A DNA stretch of 64,000 nucleotides from contig JAEUKN010000002.1 in the NCBI GenBank assembly GCA_016794305.1, positions 62,001-126,000 of the forward strand, written 5' to 3'. Below the pieces are notes generated by a model that worked only from the letters and a program-made list of their open reading frames with translations, was not told where the DNA came from and made no database searches. This DNA comes from Alphaproteobacteria bacterium. Its GTDB lineage: Bacteria; Pseudomonadota; Alphaproteobacteria; Micavibrionales; Micavibrionaceae. The position numbers and the translations under genes are program-made. The first letter of the stretch is position 1, and every line of letters starts with the position of its first letter. This document shows positions 3,462 through 34,708 of this stretch, piece after piece.

Positions 3462-4082
3462 ATGGAGGATATCCTTGAAGTTTACACCCGTCCGCGCGAT
3501 CCGGACCGGCCGCTTGTTTGCCTTGATGAAGCGACAAAACAACTCGTGAAGGAAACTCGCGTACCGATCCCCATGGGGCCGGGATGCCCCGCCCGCATCG
3601 ATTATGAGTATGAGCGAGGTGGCACAGCCAACCTGTTTATGCTCTTCGCGCCGCTTGAAGGCTGGCGGCACGTCGAGGTGACGGACCGTCATACCGCCGG
3701 GGACTATGCGCATCTTCTCAGGGAGCTGAGCGATGTTCACTTTCCGCGGGCCGAGAAGATCGTGCTGGTGCAGGATAATCTGAACACGCATTGCCCGGCT
3801 TCGCTCTACCGGACGTTCCCGCCGGAGGAAGCGCGGCGGCTTGTGGAGCGGTTTGAATGGCACTTTACGCCCAAACACGGCTCGTGGCTCAATATGGCTG
3901 AAACCGAACTCAGCGTCCTGTCCTCCCAATGCCTCGACCGCCGTATCCCCGCCAAGGACACTCTTGCTTCAGAGGTGCGCGCATGGCAAACATACCGCAA
4001 TATGCACAATGCCAAAGCCGACTGGCAGTTCTCAAACAAACAGGCCCGCACCAAACTCAAGCGCCTCTACCCGGCAATTTAA
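3462..4082 (+). CDS. IS630 transposase, downstream frame (OrfB, DDE catalytic part)
   Basis: Catalytic RNase H-fold half of the IS630 transposase, which cuts at the element ends and joins them to a TA target. The three acidic positions are visible: Asp in VCLDEATK, Asp in VLVQDNLNTH, and Glu in WLNMAETELS, in the family's DDE order. ATG 3462 is merely the first Met in frame; the true protein is probably the -1 frameshift fusion with the upstream frame, since the frame is open back to 3390. No separate ribosome site is seen before 3462. The C-terminus (FSNKQARTKLKRLYP) is the usual end of this family, so the copy looks full-length and possibly active. Confidence 0.85.
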   Translation: MEDILEVYTRPRDPDRPLVCLDEATKQLVKETRVPIPMGPGCPARIDYEYERGGTANLFMLFAPLEGWRHVEVTDRHTAGDYAHLLRELSDVHFPRAEKIVLVQDNLNTHCPASLYRTFPPEEARRLVERFEWHFTPKHGSWLNMAETELSVLSSQCLDRRIPAKDTLASEVRAWQTYRNMHNAKADWQFSNKQARTKLKRLYPAI

Positions 4083-4172: not shown

Positions 4173-4409
4173 CGCCGCAAGACGGAGGTTTTTAGAAGTG
4201 CCCTATATACTCGCTCACCTCTTTCCCATGAGGTACTGTTTGGATCGGATAATTTTATCCCGTTATGATTTCCAAAATAGATTATACCACATTGGTATAA
4301 CCTCTCACCTACGGCGAATTTCCTTAACTTTGTGCCGACTGTCTCTTACCTATTTTCCAAAATCACTAGCTTGCGTTCCTTAACCTTTTGACCGAAAGGA
4401 TGATTTTCC
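4173..4409. other. Leader region of the first phoH gene
   Basis: Together with the palindrome at 4097-4172 this forms a 316-bp gene-free stretch between the IS and phoH. It contains the TTATACCA-N3-TGGTATAA palindrome (listed separately) and an AAAGGATG ribosome site before the ATG at 4410. The open frame 4123-4383 has no ribosome site and an improbable composition, so I do not call it a gene. Confidence 0.5.
4282..4300. promoter_or_regulatory. Operator-like palindrome TTATACCA-N3-TGGTATAA, site 1
   Basis: Perfect 8-bp inverted repeat with spacer CAT, 110 bp upstream of the phoH start. The same palindrome occurs twice upstream of fliL (9435-9457 and 9470-9486). The right arm ends in TATAA, so the site may overlap a -10 element. 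The regulator is unknown. Confidence 0.5.
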
Positions 4410-5207
4410 ATGGCTAAAGACTCCTCCAAATCCCACAAATCCCGCAAAGACCACATCGCCCGCGCCAAAATCCACCACCATGACAATATTGTCCATACGG
4501 CGTTTGATCACGCGGAATGGGACCCCTTATCTCATCATGCGGGTGATGAGTTCGCGCGCACCATTGACGGCCGACGCGATCAATCCTATGTCCGCACCGT
4601 GCGCCCGCGATCAAACGGTCAACGCGCGTTAATGGCGGCGATTATGGATAAAAACCTGACGCTGGCGTTGGGTCCTGCGGGAACGGGGAAGACCTATCTC
4701 GCGATTTCGGCGGCGGTGGAGGCACTCGAAAATGGGCGGATTGAGCGCATCATCCTCTCCCGCCCCGCGATGGAGGCCGGGGAGTCGCTCGGTTATCTGC
4801 CGGGGGACATGCATGAAAAAATGGCGCCGTATTTGCGGCCGCTTTATGATGCGTTGGGCGATCGTTTGGGCGGTAAGCGCGTGCGGCAATTGCTGGAGGA
4901 CGGCACGATTGAAATCGCGCCGGTCGGGTTTATGCGCGGGCGCACGCTTAATAATGCCTTTGTGGTGATTGACGAGGCGCAGAATTGCACCTATGCGCAG
5001 TTGAAAATGCTGCTCTCTCGGCTTGGCTGGCATTCCACCATGGTGGTGACGGGCGACCCGGATCAGAGCGACTTGCTCGAAGGGCTTTCAGGGTTAGCGG
5101 AGATTGCGCGGAAATTGGAAACTATTGCGGGAATCTCAGTGGTCCGGCTCAAAGCCGAAGATATCGTCCGGCACCCGCTGGTCGCCGAGATGCTGGATGT
5201 GATATAG
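4410..5207 (+). CDS. PhoH-family P-loop ATPase (first copy)
   Basis: 265 residues, start ATG 4410 after AAAGGATG. A PhoH-type ATPase domain covers residues about 60-265: Walker A in LGPAGTGKTYLA (about 88-99), Walker B VIDEAQN, and the sensor motif VTGDPDQSDL. PhoH proteins are cytoplasmic ATPases related to the helicase core of superfamily I and linked to RNA metabolism; the exact role of this short form is not settled. The first 60 residues are His/Lys-rich and divergent. A second, longer PhoH lies at 58383-59354 in the classical ybeY operon; this one lacks the N-terminal KH-like extension of that copy and stands alone, so it is a paralogue of separate role. No partner gene is adjacent on the same strand. 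Confidence 0.9.
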   Translation: MAKDSSKSHKSRKDHIARAKIHHHDNIVHTAFDHAEWDPLSHHAGDEFARTIDGRRDQSYVRTVRPRSNGQRALMAAIMDKNLTLALGPAGTGKTYLAISAAVEALENGRIERIILSRPAMEAGESLGYLPGDMHEKMAPYLRPLYDALGDRLGGKRVRQLLEDGTIEIAPVGFMRGRTLNNAFVVIDEAQNCTYAQLKMLLSRLGWHSTMVVTGDPDQSDLLEGLSGLAEIARKLETIAGISVVRLKAEDIVRHPLVAEMLDVI

Positions 5208-5605: not shown

Positions 5606-6445
5606 TTACTGCGACGGCAGGTCGGGGAGTTTCTTTTGTTCCATCAACAGCGCGGTGAGGGCGCGGGCGCGGTCGGCATCCATCGCCGCGACAATGGGGG
5701 ATACTTTGGCTTCGGGCATTTTGCCCACCACATCGACCAAAATATCCATATCCAGCGTGTTAAAAATCCGCGCCGCGTCTTTGGGTTTCATGCCGGTATA
5801 GATTTTGACCAGGCTTTGGATGCGGGTTTGCTCCTCCTCCGTTTGTTTTTTGAGGAGGGATTGAATCTGGTCGCGCAGTCCCGTGAGTTCGGTGTATTTG
5901 CGGTCGAGTTCTTTCTGTCCGGCCTCCAGCAAGGCTTCACGTTGCGATAGGGTTTTGTCGCGCGTATCCAGTTCGGCGCGCCGCGCTGTCAGATCCTTAT
6001 ATAAATCGGCCTTAATATCCGAACATTCGGTGTCAATGTCCTTGGCATCATCCCAATTTTTTGGGGGCGAATTTTGTGTCTCAGAGTCCGCATCCCCTGT
6101 CGACTTCGCATGGGCATCGGGCAGGGTTAAATCATCCGGCCCGCCGGCGGTGTCTTTGCTCTCTAAACTATCGGCCGATTTTAACTCATCAAGCGAGGGG
6201 GGCGGAGCAGGGGAGTTTTCCGTTGAAGCGTTTGAATTTTCGGCTATCTTTTCACCTGTTTTTTCATCTGTTTTTTCATCTGTTTTTTCTGGGCTTTGGG
6301 CAGCCAAGACTTCGCCCGATAGTGCGCGGTAACTCATCACACTGTCCCCCACCCGCACCATAAAGGTGAGCCCCGCCACCACAATCATGATCGGCAGCAG
6401 CCGTAGTTTTTTGAGGAATTTTTTATGGGGGGCTTGGTTGTCCAT
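5606..6445 (-). CDS. motE: MotE-like flagellar motor protein (MgtE-N fold)
   Basis: 279 residues. A membrane segment at about 17-37 follows a basic N-terminus; then comes a disordered acidic/Ser/Pro linker (about 45-140), a coiled coil (about 140-205, with REALLEAGQKELDRK), and a C-terminal domain (about 205-275) with KIYTGMKPKDAARIFNTLD and AKVSPIVAAMD, typical of MotE/MgtE intracellular N domains. In alphaproteobacteria MotE is a periplasmic chaperone of MotC, needed for motor function. Last gene of the fliL-fliM-DUF6468-motE cluster, 267 bp after the DUF6468 stop, where a palindromic element intervenes. The linker shows a 12-bp in-frame tandem repeat (EKTD EKTD EKTG) at about 6250-6290. 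Confidence 0.85.
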   Translation of the reverse strand: MDNQAPHKKFLKKLRLLPIMIVVAGLTFMVRVGDSVMSYRALSGEVLAAQSPEKTDEKTDEKTGEKIAENSNASTENSPAPPPSLDELKSADSLESKDTAGGPDDLTLPDAHAKSTGDADSETQNSPPKNWDDAKDIDTECSDIKADLYKDLTARRAELDTRDKTLSQREALLEAGQKELDRKYTELTGLRDQIQSLLKKQTEEEQTRIQSLVKIYTGMKPKDAARIFNTLDMDILVDVVGKMPEAKVSPIVAAMDADRARALTALLMEQKKLPDLPSQ

Positions 6446-6712: not shown

Positions 6713-7399
6713 TCATTTCTTACGTGATTTGAGCGCGGCGGCGAGGTCCTGTTCCGACTGACTAAGGCCGGAAACCTGGCCCGGTTCGTCGCGTTCAAAA
6801 TCCGCATCATGAATGGTAAAGCTTGGGGGTTGGTCGGGAAGCGGTTCGGGCGGAATGACTTTTTCCCTATTGGCGCGCGGCAACATTTCGGCATATTTCG
6901 GTGAGGATTTGCGATGCGCCGTTCCCGAAGCGGTTTCGTGCGGGGCATCAGTTTCTTTTTCGGCTTGCCCCAGCGGTCTGCCCAATGGCCTTCCTAATGG
7001 CCTACGTTGTGCCGCTGGTGCAGTCGGAGTCGGCGCGTCCCGATTGGCCCTTGCGGGGGCGGTACTGCGTTGCGGCATCGCTGAATTTTCCAAACGATTG
7101 GCCACGGAATTGGCGGATTCGGTCATAATAGCCAGCTCATCCATCAATGCCCGCGCCTTGGCCACCATTTTGCGTAGGTCTTCGCCTTGGGTTTTTGAGA
7201 TATCATCGAGCGTTGTAATGCCCTCTTGCGCGCGGGTGATTTGGGTGGTGAGTTCACGGATCAGTCGCTCCATCTCATTGCGGTTGGAACGAAAGACACT
7301 CAGGTGTTTATTGAGCCGCAACGCGCAGATAATCGTGGCCGCCAGCATCACCATCATGCCGACATCAAAGATAAAAGAGATTAAGGCGTAATGGTCCAT
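6713..7399 (-). CDS. DUF6468 flagellar-operon membrane protein
   Basis: 228 residues, start ATG 7399, 17 bp after the fliM stop. A single N-terminal membrane helix (about 5-26) is followed by a long coiled coil (about 35-105) with heptad-like Leu/Ile/Met spacing, then a Pro/Arg/Ala-rich disordered tail. This architecture and the position directly after fliM match the DUF6468 family found in alphaproteobacterial flagellar operons; its precise role in the motor is not established. The tail carries an in-frame repeat of Leu-Gly-Arg-Pro (GRPLGRPLGRPLG, near 6970-7003), a slippage-type expansion. The large antisense frame 6813-7391 is a shadow. Confidence 0.8.
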   Translation of the reverse strand: MDHYALISFIFDVGMMVMLAATIICALRLNKHLSVFRSNRNEMERLIRELTTQITRAQEGITTLDDISKTQGEDLRKMVAKARALMDELAIMTESANSVANRLENSAMPQRSTAPARANRDAPTPTAPAAQRRPLGRPLGRPLGQAEKETDAPHETASGTAHRKSSPKYAEMLPRANREKVIPPEPLPDQPPSFTIHDADFERDEPGQVSGLSQSEQDLAAALKSRKK

Positions 7400-7416: not shown

Positions 7417-8541
7417 TCATTCTTTTTCGGGCGGAATATAGCGTTCAATGCGCACCGCGATATTGCCTTCTTTTTGCCCCATCGGCCCCGCAAACATTGG
7501 GAAATCACCGCATCGCAACTCCACCTCGTCACTCGGTTTGGTGTTAAACAGCACCAAAGTGCCTTTTTTCCAATTGAGCATATCGCGCAGCATCACGGTC
7601 TTTTCGCCCATCACCGCCTGAAGATACACATCGGTCATATAAAGTTCGTTGGTCAGGTGGGTTTCCCAAATCGAGTCGCGGCCGAATTTTTCCCCCATAA
7701 ACATCTGGAGCAATAATTCCCGAATGGGTTCGAGCGTGGCATAGGGAATGAGGATTTCAATCCGCCCGCCGCGGTCGCCCATATCAATGCGCATGCGTAC
7801 TAGAACACAGGCATTACCGGCCTGGGTAATCGCCGCAAAACGCGGGTTGGTTTCGATGTTATCGAGTTTAAAACTGACAGGCGAGAGCGGGTCAAACGCC
7901 GTGGACATGTCATGAAGCGCGACATTGAGCATCCGTTCCACCAGCTTGGTTTCAATGGTGGTGTAGGGGCGTCCCTCCACCCGTATCGACGGCGTTCCCT
8001 TGCGTCCGCCAAGCAAGACATCCACAACCGAGTAAATCAGCGAGCTATCGACCACCATCAGCCCGTTATTGTCCCATTCTTCGGCCTTAAACACCGACAG
8101 CATTGCGGGAAGCGGGATAGAGTTCAGGTAATCGCCAAAACGTACGGTGGAGATTTGATCGAGCGAGACTTCGACATTATCCGATGTCAAATTACGCAGC
8201 GACGTGGTCATAAGGCGTACCAAACGATCAAACACCACATCCAGCATCGGTAGGCGTTCGTAGTTGACCAGGGCCGCGTTGATCAGGGCCATGACGCCGG
8301 AGGCTTCCTCCTGATGGCCATCGCCGTCAAAACCGAGCAGAGAGTCAATTTCCGCCTGATTCAGGATGCGCGTGCCGCCGCCCCCGTCCGAATCCATCGA
8401 ACCTGATGCGGAACCCGAAACGGCCGGGACTTCATCCATCACCGGTTGGGGCGTGTCTTCGGCACTATCCGCCATGGCTTCCCATTCGGCCATCATGCGG
8501 CGTTCTTCTTCGCTCATCTGATCCAATTCGGTATCAGCCAT
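7417..8541 (-). CDS. fliM: Flagellar motor switch protein FliM
   Basis: 374 residues from ATG 8541 (a TTG five codons upstream is less likely). FliM is a C-ring subunit of the flagellar switch: it binds phospho-CheY through its N-terminus and contacts FliG and FliN. The CheY-binding peptide is seen at about residues 59-71 (LNQAEIDSLLGF). The middle domain (about 90-280) includes MTTSLRNLTSDNVEVSLD and the conserved GGRKGTPSIRVEGR region; the C-terminal FliN-like (SpoA) domain follows at about 290-370. The N-terminal 58 residues are an acidic, Ser/Gly-rich extension longer than in enterics. Follows fliL by 162 bp on the same strand, the canonical fliL-fliM order. Confidence 0.96.
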   Translation of the reverse strand: MADTELDQMSEEERRMMAEWEAMADSAEDTPQPVMDEVPAVSGSASGSMDSDGGGGTRILNQAEIDSLLGFDGDGHQEEASGVMALINAALVNYERLPMLDVVFDRLVRLMTTSLRNLTSDNVEVSLDQISTVRFGDYLNSIPLPAMLSVFKAEEWDNNGLMVVDSSLIYSVVDVLLGGRKGTPSIRVEGRPYTTIETKLVERMLNVALHDMSTAFDPLSPVSFKLDNIETNPRFAAITQAGNACVLVRMRIDMGDRGGRIEILIPYATLEPIRELLLQMFMGEKFGRDSIWETHLTNELYMTDVYLQAVMGEKTVMLRDMLNWKKGTLVLFNTKPSDEVELRCGDFPMFAGPMGQKEGNIAVRIERYIPPEKE

Positions 8542-8703
8542 ATTTTTTAACCCCAATGAACTTAACTTACACTATAGATATGCATGAGATATGCACGAAA
8601 CGGGCCAATATCAGTCTGAATGATTGCTCCCCCATCTGACCTCCCGCCTCAAGAGGGGAGGGAAAGGAGGGGCAGAACAGGAGGGCCTGCAAGTCATCAA
8701 GTC

Positions 8704-9399
8704 CTATTGTATCAAAATTTCCTGAAAAAGAATATCCTTAACCTCAACCGGGGATGCGGCGGCATTGACGCGGGCCAATAATTCCATCTGAAGCCGATAA
8801 ATCCCCTTGGATCCCTTCAAATCCTCCACCCGCAGCTCACGCAAATAAGTTTGAAATTGGTCAATCACGCGCGGCAGGACCATTTCCACTTTCTTTTGAT
8901 CCTCTTCGTTGGCCAATTCCAACTGAACCGAAAGCCGCAGATATCTTTGCGGGCCGCTGCCGGAGCTTGCCAAATTTACAATTAAATCGGGAATTTTCAT
9001 GAAGACCGCATCGGCGGGGTGGGCCGACTCACTCTCTGCGGATTCCTTTTTTTCGCCTTTTTTACCCTCTTCTTTGCCACCTTCTTTGGACTCACCATGG
9101 CCTTTTTCGGACTTGCCTTCTGAAGTTTCCTTGGATGAGTCTTTGCTCTCGCCGTGGCCCTTTTCGTCTGCTTTTTCCCCTTCTTTCTTGTCCCCGTCTT
9201 TGCCTTCATGCCCCGTTTCCTCGGTCGGGGCTTTACCCAGCATTTTATCCAGCATACCCGAAAAATACAGCCCCGCGCCGCCGCCGATCAGCAGCAGCAA
9301 AGGAATCAAAATCAACAAAATTTTCTTCTTTTTACCGCCGCCATCATCAATCGGGGTGATGGTGTCATCATTTTCGGCGGGGGTGGGGGCATCGCTCAT
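8704..9399 (-). CDS. fliL: Flagellar basal body-associated protein FliL
   Basis: 231 residues, start ATG 9399 with GAGG nearby. One membrane helix at about 27-47 after a KKKK stretch, then an unusually long Lys/Glu/Gly/His/Ser linker (about 55-130) made of imperfect repeats (KGHGESK twice), and the C-terminal periplasmic FliL domain (about 132-231) with FMKIPDLIVNL and YLRLSVQLEL. FliL surrounds stator units and supports torque. The linker is far longer than in enteric FliL and is low-complexity, compatible with repeat expansion. First gene of the flagellar operon; two operator-like palindromes lie 36-87 bp upstream of its start. Confidence 0.95.
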   Translation of the reverse strand: MSDAPTPAENDDTITPIDDGGGKKKKILLILIPLLLLIGGGAGLYFSGMLDKMLGKAPTEETGHEGKDGDKKEGEKADEKGHGESKDSSKETSEGKSEKGHGESKEGGKEEGKKGEKKESAESESAHPADAVFMKIPDLIVNLASSGSGPQRYLRLSVQLELANEEDQKKVEMVLPRVIDQFQTYLRELRVEDLKGSKGIYRLQMELLARVNAAASPVEVKDILFQEILIQ

Positions 9400-9434
9400 G
9401 GGAACCTCATTTGCGCTTAATTATTCAAAAAATA

Positions 9435-9457
9435 CATTATACCATTTTGGTATAATG
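9435..9457. promoter_or_regulatory. Operator-like palindrome, site 2 (fliL promoter region)
   Basis: Perfect 10-bp inverted repeat CATTATACCA-TTT-TGGTATAATG, 36 bp upstream of the fliL start. On the fliL strand its distal arm ends TATAAT, so it probably overlaps a -10 element; a bound repressor would block transcription. Shares its half-site with 4282-4300 and 9470-9486. Confidence 0.55.
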
Positions 9458-9469
9458 AAATTATTGTGA

Positions 9470-9486
9470 TATACCAAAATGGCATA
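9470..9486. promoter_or_regulatory. Operator-like palindrome, site 3 (one mismatch)
   Basis: TATACCA-AAA-TGGCATA, the same half-sites and 3-nt spacer as site 2, with one mismatch. It lies 35 bp from site 2 centre to centre, close to three and a half helical turns, which could allow paired binding upstream of fliL. Confidence 0.45.
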
Positions 9487-9554
9487 ATTCGACTCAGACA
9501 AAAACTCACCCAAGTGTAGCGAACAAATCACCAAGAGGAAATAGTGATTTTATA

Positions 9555-10202
9555 TCACGAACAATTTCTCAGTAACGACGATGGGCATAGAGATTCAATA
9601 ATGCATTCGCCACAGAGCGGGCTGCGGGCCTTGCAAATATATCGCCCGTGGAGGATAAGCCAGTGATGGGCGTGCGATTTATAAATGGGCGGGATGCGGC
9701 TTTCCAATTGAGACTCAACCTCCGCAACGTTTTTGCCATCGGCCAATCCGGTGCGATTGGCCACCCGAAACACATGCGTATCCACCGCAATTGTGGGATG
9801 CCCAAAGGCGATATTGAGCACAACATTGGCGGTTTTGCGCCCCACGCCGGGCAGCTTGATGAGCGCGTCCAGTGTGTTTGGAACCTCGCCGCCATATTCA
9901 CGCACCAAAATTTCGGATGTGGCCATAATATGTGCGGCTTTGGAATGATAAAGCCCGATGGATTTTATAGCGTTTTTGAGGTTTTCCAAACCAAAATCCA
10001 GCATTTTTTGCGCATTGTCCACCTGCGCGAACAGGGGCCCGGTCGCAAGGTTAACGCCGCGATCTGTGGCCTGGGCCGAAAGAATCACCGCCACCAGCAA
10101 GGTGTAAGAGTTGGTGTAATGCAGTTCCCCCCGCGGTTCAGGGGCGCGCAGCCTGAACCGTTCGAATAACTCCACAATCTCATGCTTGTTCAAAAGTTTC
10201 AT
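9555..10202 (-). CDS. nth: Endonuclease III
   Basis: 215 residues from ATG 10202; the frame is open to 10244 but that would overlap the upstream peroxiredoxin gene, and MKLLNKHEI fits the family N-terminus. DNA glycosylase/AP lyase that removes oxidised pyrimidines in base excision repair. Helix-hairpin-helix with the catalytic Lys at LPGVGRKTANVVL (about 110-122), catalytic Asp in VDTHVFRV, and the C-terminal iron-sulfur ligands in CKARSPLCGECIIESLC (Cys-X6-Cys-X2-Cys-X5-Cys). Complete and of normal length. Starts 17 bp after the peroxiredoxin stop, so the two oxidative-stress genes are probably cotranscribed. Confidence 0.96.
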   Translation of the reverse strand: MKLLNKHEIVELFERFRLRAPEPRGELHYTNSYTLLVAVILSAQATDRGVNLATGPLFAQVDNAQKMLDFGLENLKNAIKSIGLYHSKAAHIMATSEILVREYGGEVPNTLDALIKLPGVGRKTANVVLNIAFGHPTIAVDTHVFRVANRTGLADGKNVAEVESQLESRIPPIYKSHAHHWLILHGRYICKARSPLCGECIIESLCPSSLLRNCS

Positions 10203-10219
10203 CAATGTGGTTAGCGCGC

Positions 10220-10711
10220 CTAAGCCGCGAGGCGCGTGAGGCACATTTGCGCCCCCGAAAGCTCAGCATCGCCGCCTTTAGGTTCAATCTGCAGATCTTT
10301 GACAATGCCGCGATCAATCACCATCATAAAACGCTGGGACCGCAGCCCAAGCCCTGCGCCGCTCGCGTCCATCGTTAATCCGAGCTTTTTCACCAATTCC
10401 GCATTACCGTCCGGAATCATCATGACTTTGCCATCTGCGCCCGCAACCTCGCCCCAATGCTGCATCACAAAGGGATCGTTGACCGAAAGGCACAAAATTG
10501 CATCCACGCCCGTGGCCTTAATCTGCTCTGCCTGGCTCACATATCCGGGGAGGTGTTTTTGCGAACAGGTGGGGGTAAAGGCACCGGGAACCGCGAATAA
10601 AACGACTTTTTTATCCTTTAAAAACGCCGCCACGTCAAAATCTTCTAACCCCGCTGCGCCCAAAATTTTAAGCGTTGCGGCAGGAAATTGATCACCGATT
10701 GCAATGGTCAT
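10220..10711 (-). CDS. Peroxiredoxin (Prx5/AhpC-TSA type)
   Basis: 163 residues from ATG 10711, with AGAGG upstream; a 12-codon extension to 10747 lacks a ribosome site. Thiol peroxidase of the Prx5 (redoxin) group that reduces hydrogen peroxide and alkyl peroxides in the cytoplasm. Peroxidatic Cys is in VPGAFTPTCSQKHLPG (about residue 49), the family signature; a second Cys near ILCLSVND (about 75) is conserved in several Prx5 proteins. The active-site Arg is expected in GLRSQRFMMV (about 128). Lies directly upstream of nth. Confidence 0.93.
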   Translation of the reverse strand: MTIAIGDQFPAATLKILGAAGLEDFDVAAFLKDKKVVLFAVPGAFTPTCSQKHLPGYVSQAEQIKATGVDAILCLSVNDPFVMQHWGEVAGADGKVMMIPDGNAELVKKLGLTMDASGAGLGLRSQRFMMVIDRGIVKDLQIEPKGGDAELSGAQMCLTRLAA

Positions 10712-34582: not shown

Positions 34583-34708
34583 CTAGCCTTGGCGCGCCTT
34601 GCAACGCGGGTCTTTTTTATTAATCACATAGACGCGGCCCTTACGGCGCACGACACGGCAATTACGGTCACGGGTTTTGAGGGTTTTGAGCGAGTTGACG
34701 ACTTTCAT
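34583..34708 (-). CDS. rpmJ: 50S ribosomal protein L36 (short gene)
   Basis: 41 codons from ATG 34708 to TAG at 34583-34585, with AAGGA 8 nt upstream. The translation begins [17 protein letters not shown] and continues [16 protein letters not shown], ending PRCKARQG: the C-terminal L36 zinc-ribbon-like pattern with Cys at 17 and 36 and an Arg/Lys-rich composition. L36 completes the large ribosomal subunit near helix 89-91 of 23S rRNA. It is a lone gene, transcribed towards mreB, 145 bp upstream of the mreB start. It is short enough to be missed by simple ORF scans. Confidence 0.9.

Follow-up and report, generated by a model that had tools for sequence, protein, structure and literature searches.

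Known autoregulated repressors and the control of flagellar genes

The Cro/CI-type repressors of lambda and 434 are autoregulated proteins of the XRE family (Pfam HTH_3) with paired palindromic operators. In the Alphaproteobacteria, PraR has been described as an autoregulated XRE repressor, and an Azorhizobium praR mutant shows induction of two flagellar genes, according to the part of PMC4149787 used here. The consensus of PraR is CAAC-N5-GTTG in the corresponding part of PMC5527310, TTGCAA is given in PMC4149787, and the protein is disabled by the antirepressor CinS (PMC10688885, PMC4149787, both in part). RtrC from Caulobacter represses where its motif overlaps the -10/-35 elements and activates from further upstream (PMC9648850, in part). 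M. aeruginosavorus, the described member of the genus Micavibrio, shuts off flagellar genes when attaching to prey; the portion of PMC3189940 used here names no flagellar regulator and suggests sigma 32 as an attack-phase factor.

Palindromic sites before fliL and phoH

The window (the whole stretch of 64,000 nucleotides that was analysed) holds three palindromes with the half-site TATACCA and a 3-nt spacer, at the positions reported in the preliminary description. Two of them precede fliL on the minus strand. The perfect one, O2 (9437..9455; core 9438-9454), has two perfect 10-bp arms spanning 9435-9457 (CATTATACCA-TTT-TGGTATAATG), with 35 bp between the site and the fliL start at 9399. On the fliL strand it reads TTATACCAAAATGGTATAA, the right half of which, TGGTATAAT, forms an extended -10, and the overlap with a -10-like element proposed earlier for this site is confirmed for the minus strand, where the letters are TGGTATAATG. 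The other, O1 (9469..9487; core 9470-9486), is located 32 bp upstream of O2, a distance absent from the preliminary description; it has one mismatch to the 17-bp core (TATACCAAAATGGCATA, or TATGCCATTTTGGTATA on the fliL strand). The third site, on the plus strand at 4282..4300 (core 4283-4299), is the perfect palindrome TTATACCACATTGGTATAA, with no mismatches and the right half TGGTATAAC, and stands singly, separated from the phoH ATG (4410) by 109 bp. The matrix scores of O2, O1 and the phoH operator are 32.0, 27.4 and 28.7, each site being itself among those in the matrix. When up to three mismatches are allowed, the 19-bp pattern has exactly these three matches in the whole window, compared to a mean of 0.16 and a largest value of 1 in 100 dinucleotide shuffles.

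The gene identities proposed for fliL (8704..9399, minus strand) and phoH (4410..5207, plus strand) are borne out by Pfam matches to FliL (E 9.9e-21) and PhoH (E 2e-81). The first gene behind the operator pair, fliL, presumably shares its operon with fliM (7417..8556; FliM, E 8.6e-64) and a DUF6468 gene (6713..7399; E 5.9e-17), and possibly with a gene holding an MgtE_N domain (5606..6445; E 3.9e-8), all of them on the minus strand. Directly upstream of fliL, on the same strand, lies nth (9555..10244), of the endonuclease III type (HhH-GPD, E 1.3e-20). A DDE_3 transposase-type gene (3462-4082) is found immediately upstream of the phoH promoter region.

A genome-wide family of sites

The window belongs to a 1.94-Mb draft genome of 143 contigs (G000), probably a member of the genus Micavibrio. 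The whole-genome search recommended in the preliminary description revealed an excess of sites over a reversed control, together with their downstream genes. The 19-mer with up to two mismatches has 12 matches against one for the control, the 17-mer TATACCANNNTGGTATA with up to one mismatch has 14 against one, and a wider exact pattern, TATRCSRNNNYSGYATA, has 13 against none (0-3 in 57 relatives). At three mismatches the signal of the 17-mer is lost (73 matches versus 99 in the control). When 141 further genomes from the order were searched for the 17-mer in the same way, with up to one mismatch, 24 of them gave matches (one match in 23 and two in the remaining one), none of them exact. TATAAT-like halves are common in promoters, and AT-rich promoter DNA might be thought to yield such palindromes by chance; this explanation, however, is refuted by the shuffles, the reversed control and the 141 other genomes, and we give it practically no weight.

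The matrix was built from 13 of the 14 sites, with the glyS site omitted, and is symmetric by construction, as both orientations of each site were entered. It comprises the 17-bp core, whose arms hold 1.2-1.7 bits, and two weaker positions per side, while the flanks beyond these 21 bp (38 positions per side) hold at most 0.56 bits per position. Since sequence sharing is confined to approximately 17-21 bp, the sites look like binding sites and not like copies of a longer repeat. Dispersed palindromic repeats are known in several kinds, such as REP/MITE and the Rickettsia-palindromic-element type, and spreading by copying would account for a burst in one genome that is nearly absent from its congeners, as well as for three in-frame copies, 42 bp apart, within a DUF2155 gene. 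Nevertheless, the low information of the flanks, the variation of N3 and of the flanking letters, the phasing of the pairs, their intergenic bias and the pair at the promoter of an XRE gene in a sister species all argue against a dispersed repeat, which we regard as very improbable. Membership in the REP, RPE or MITE families, which share spacer and flanks, was rejected on the contrast between these flanks and the core arms.

An asymmetric form of the site, TATACCAAANNCGCATA, occurs in seven exact copies in G000, six of them beside another site. In several pairs, a TATGCG half makes the second site asymmetric (C50:30335, C55:77601, C61:19626, C77:29365 and others), and such sites may correspond to a heterodimer or to a weaker second site.

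Placement, candidate targets and spacing

Instead of the random scatter through coding DNA that would speak against operators, 12 of the 14 genomic sites were judged intergenic when their neighbourhoods were read by eye. Five of these 12 fall within short mechanical ORFs that were taken as spurious, of 86 aa at the phoH site, 61 aa at both sites of the XRE promoter, 112 aa at the fliR site and 67 aa at the uppS site. A mechanical count was made over the window and nine loci. With a minimum ORF length of 60 aa, 9.5% of the DNA is outside ORFs and so are 7/14 sites (P 1.3e-4); the corresponding values are 12.1% and 11/14 for a minimum of 90 aa (P 2e-8), and 14.2% and 12/14 for 115 aa (P 5e-9). 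Of the two sites in clear coding DNA, one falls within a gene judged glyS-like by eye and the other within the DUF2155 gene, in its 3' part.

Paired sites are found before fliR (C61, 19585 and 19626), an XRE gene (C143, 4412 and 4444, at its own promoter), the gene of a secreted-looking EF-hand protein (C50, 30303 and 30335) and that of a 113-aa protein with no named function (C110, 32668 and 32700), and a further pair overlaps the start of a Mur ligase gene (C55, 77601 and 77634). Four interleaved sites precede uppS (C77, 29350-29423), and single ones are located at an ankyrin protein gene (C11, 3261) and at purE (C54, 1587), 2 bp before the start codon. A weaker site (C22, 9883; 16.9 bits) precedes a second XRE gene, of 219 aa, and weak sites of 17.6 and 14.5 bits lie within genes on C52 and C53. 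The uppS array (L062) consists of two 42-bp pairs offset by 15 bp, between a frr-like gene and uppS. The three sites of the DUF2155 gene (C55:46840-46940, L018) follow a 42-bp period in its low-complexity 3' part and translate as NIPN-type repeats, with a phosphoglucomutase gene next downstream.

Taking one distance per multi-site place (eight places, in a list typed by hand from the scan), the spacings are 32, 32, 32, 32, 33, 41, 42 and 42 bp, which correspond to approximately three or four helical turns at 10.5 bp. Their resultant of 0.93 was matched by a fraction of 5e-5 of 20,000 random draws; when the interleaved uppS array contributes each of its distances, 14 in all, the resultant falls to 0.44 and the phasing weakens.

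A candidate regulator and its promoter in a sister species

The XRE gene preceded by a site pair (C143:4501-4770) encodes a 90-aa Cro/CI-type protein in which the HTH domain alone was found (HTH_3, PF01381; E 4.7e-14, 52.6 bits versus a curated cut-off of 23). At E 1e-13 it is matched in 6 of the 142 genomes, its own included. The closest homolog in the order is that of G005, a sister species of the same genus (50% identity, E 7e-19), and the other four show 38-41% identity. The family is a common one, a looser search having yielded XRE homologs with 25-50% identity from 53 of 58 genomes; among solved structures, only distant relatives were retrieved (four sequences, the best being PezA at E 2.7e-4).

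The sites, their number, placement and spacing, and their presence at the promoter of this gene in a second species are read directly from the genomes. In G005, the sole match to the 17-mer with up to one mismatch (C6:34616-34632) ends 34 bp upstream of the ATG with which the XRE homolog starts. A 15-mer with up to one mismatch has nine matches in the 2.3 Mb of that genome, two of which, at 34584 and 34617, form a pair 33 bp apart at the promoter of the homolog; by our own arithmetic, the probability that two of nine random matches fall in a given 150-bp stretch is about 1.5e-7. The matrix, which contains no site from G005, scores these two sites 17.7 and 17.3, the best values in 13 kb and the two best in 449,891 bases from 107 XRE-homolog loci of relatives, other genomes and viral contigs. 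The second promoter site of the XRE gene contains TATAAA in G000 and G005 alike. The site pair at the XRE promoter in G000, together with that before the G005 homolog, makes this XRE protein very probably the regulator of the palindromes, and one that would probably be autoregulated.

The sites might instead be operators of the 109-aa XRE protein encoded just upstream of the same pair (C143:4034-4363), of the 219-aa XRE protein on C22 or of an unrelated dimeric repressor. Both of these genes lie near a site, and a search of G000 with the 90-aa protein gives three matches at E 0.001. In G005, however, it is the homolog of the 90-aa protein that stands behind the two-site promoter, and the mechanical ORF list, with starts read by eye, includes no second XRE gene immediately upstream; moreover, among the 142 genomes the burst of sites coincides with the closest homolog of the 90-aa protein, in G000 and, in small, in G005. 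We consider a different regulator improbable, and the 90-aa protein is retained as the candidate.

Apart from the promoter of the homolog, G005 gives no sign of a regulon, as sites are not in excess there (87 versus 78 in the control at two mismatches), and thus the regulon looks expanded in G000. An exact 15-mer at G005:C16:55241 (score 19.6), located at convergent gene ends, was taken as chance, and a one-mismatch 15-mer at G005:C17:2689-2703 (L178) lies before a ribosomal-protein-like gene that could be a second target.

A phage origin of the C143 gene found no support: phage records show 33-36% identity among the best 10 of 17, and XRE homologs on viral contigs reach at most 48% identity among the matches listed (at least 46 loci; best site-like score 14.0, L201). 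Elsewhere on C143, at positions 9038-10310 of locus L185, two adjacent genes with near-identical protein starts, PgpA-like by eye, may reflect either tandem duplication or an artefact of assembly. On C88, a frame of 171 codons with 35% identity to the 90-aa protein could be a PraR-type gene of G000.

The fliL promoter in congeners

Conservation upstream of fliL in close relatives, which the preliminary description had expected of an operator, was not found: none of ten congeners has the site, and a genus-wide fliL operator was rejected. The best matrix score in the 300 bp upstream of fliL is 6.7 in nine congeners, and the tenth, G005, reaches 3.9 over a stretch of 550 bp, compared to 32.0 in G000, whose own site is in the matrix. 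Nine of the ten congeners lack a match to the C143 protein at E 1e-13, weaker matches being present, and the tenth, G005, has the regulator homolog with sites at its promoter and not at fliL. The gene neighbourhood differs as well, since fliL is divergent from flgF in nine of the ten congeners and has another neighbour in the remaining one (L142), whereas in G000 it lies behind nth and flgF is found on C143 at 42627. As the congeners have no fliL site and the neighbour of fliL has changed, the operator pair seems to have come with a replacement of the promoter, and the fliL operator looks like a lineage-specific rewiring. Several of the congeners (L141, L143, L145 and L146) share another promoter-like stretch at fliL, approximately GGTTTGAACA ... 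TAGAAT by eye, which was not seen before fliL in G000.

Overlap with the -10 element and proposed mechanism

In a set of 20 sites, from which those in coding DNA were omitted except for the ones at the Mur ligase start, the right half on the coding strand reads TGGTATA in 12. Six of these 12 run on as TATAAT, TATAAA or TATAAC, making an extended -10, the consensus of which is TGnTATAAT. Repression is likely, given the extended -10 present in several of the sites (TGGTATAAT in the case of fliL). The same sites and XRE protein could also serve mainly to activate fliL and the other genes, given that RtrC activates and represses by position (PMC9648850, in part) and that O1 lies upstream of the -10. 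O2, on the other hand, covers the extended -10 itself, the position from which RtrC represses in the same part of that source, and a mainly activating role appears unlikely to us.

We infer binding, dimerisation, cooperativity, repression and a relieving signal from sequence, and consider it likely that dimers of the C143 XRE protein occupy phased palindromes, block the -10 and repress their own gene as well as others. Each site of 17-21 bp, approximately AWTATACCA-N3-TGGTATAWT, would bind one dimer, and at a spacing of 32-33 or 41-42 bp two dimers would lie on the same helix face, probably in a cooperative manner. Where the right half of the site can form an extended -10, binding would block the RNA polymerase. 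The protein would thereby repress the gene that encodes it. Its further targets in this lineage would be the fliL operon, fliR and phoH, and probably also uppS, the Mur ligase gene, the ankyrin gene and others. The domain search of the 90-aa protein revealed no sensor domain, so the state of the system would depend on an antirepressor or on the level of the protein itself. The earlier idea of a dimeric-repressor operator common to phoH and a flagellar operon is thus supported as regards the operator, which now belongs to a genome-wide, phased and largely intergenic family, while repression remains a prediction and phoH, with its single site 109 bp upstream, a putative target.

A more far-reaching reading, to which we give little credence, is that a phage-repressor-like XRE protein, which in a sister species would control chiefly its own gene, became a global switch in one Micavibrio lineage, its operator being recruited to motility and growth genes. 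The operator would have offered a ready-made extended -10, recruited by the fliL operon after the loss of its flgF-divergent promoter and also by fliR, and it would control the growth genes uppS, Mur ligase and purE, possibly to switch between attack and attachment in a predatory life cycle. A role of the C143 regulator in the attachment-phase shut-off of flagellar genes is speculation.

A family of operators has been tied to a probable regulator from sequence alone. The regulon appears young and nearly confined to one genome, and its likely ancestral state is kept in sister species, in the form of the fliL/flgF divergence and the two-site regulator of G005, which makes the birth of a regulon testable.

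Comparison with known systems

The proposed system resembles those of lambda and 434 in its small HTH_3 protein and its paired 17-bp palindromes, spaced by a near-integral number of turns, placed over the -10 and present at the promoter of the regulator itself. It differs from them in the operator, here TATACCA-N3-TGGTATA, and in the location of the sites before chromosomal genes, flagellar ones included; moreover, phage structural genes were not recognised among those neighbours of the XRE gene that were examined. An operator of this sequence was not found among the literature matches listed, in the parts of the articles covered, and the motif letters in PMC3121763 occur in primers only. PraR, PhrR and CdxA (PMC5527310, PMC4149787, PMC10688885, in part) have the XRE family in common with the C143 protein. 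PraR is set apart by its described operator motif, and a PraR-type operator was rejected at these sites, as CAAC-N5-GTTG (PMC5527310, in part) differs from TATACCA-N3-TGGTATA. RtrC is not called an XRE protein in the part of PMC9648850 used here and is likened by description alone; it shares with the proposed system a pseudo-palindromic motif, the direct control of flagellar-motility genes and a regulatory sign that is set by the position of the motif.
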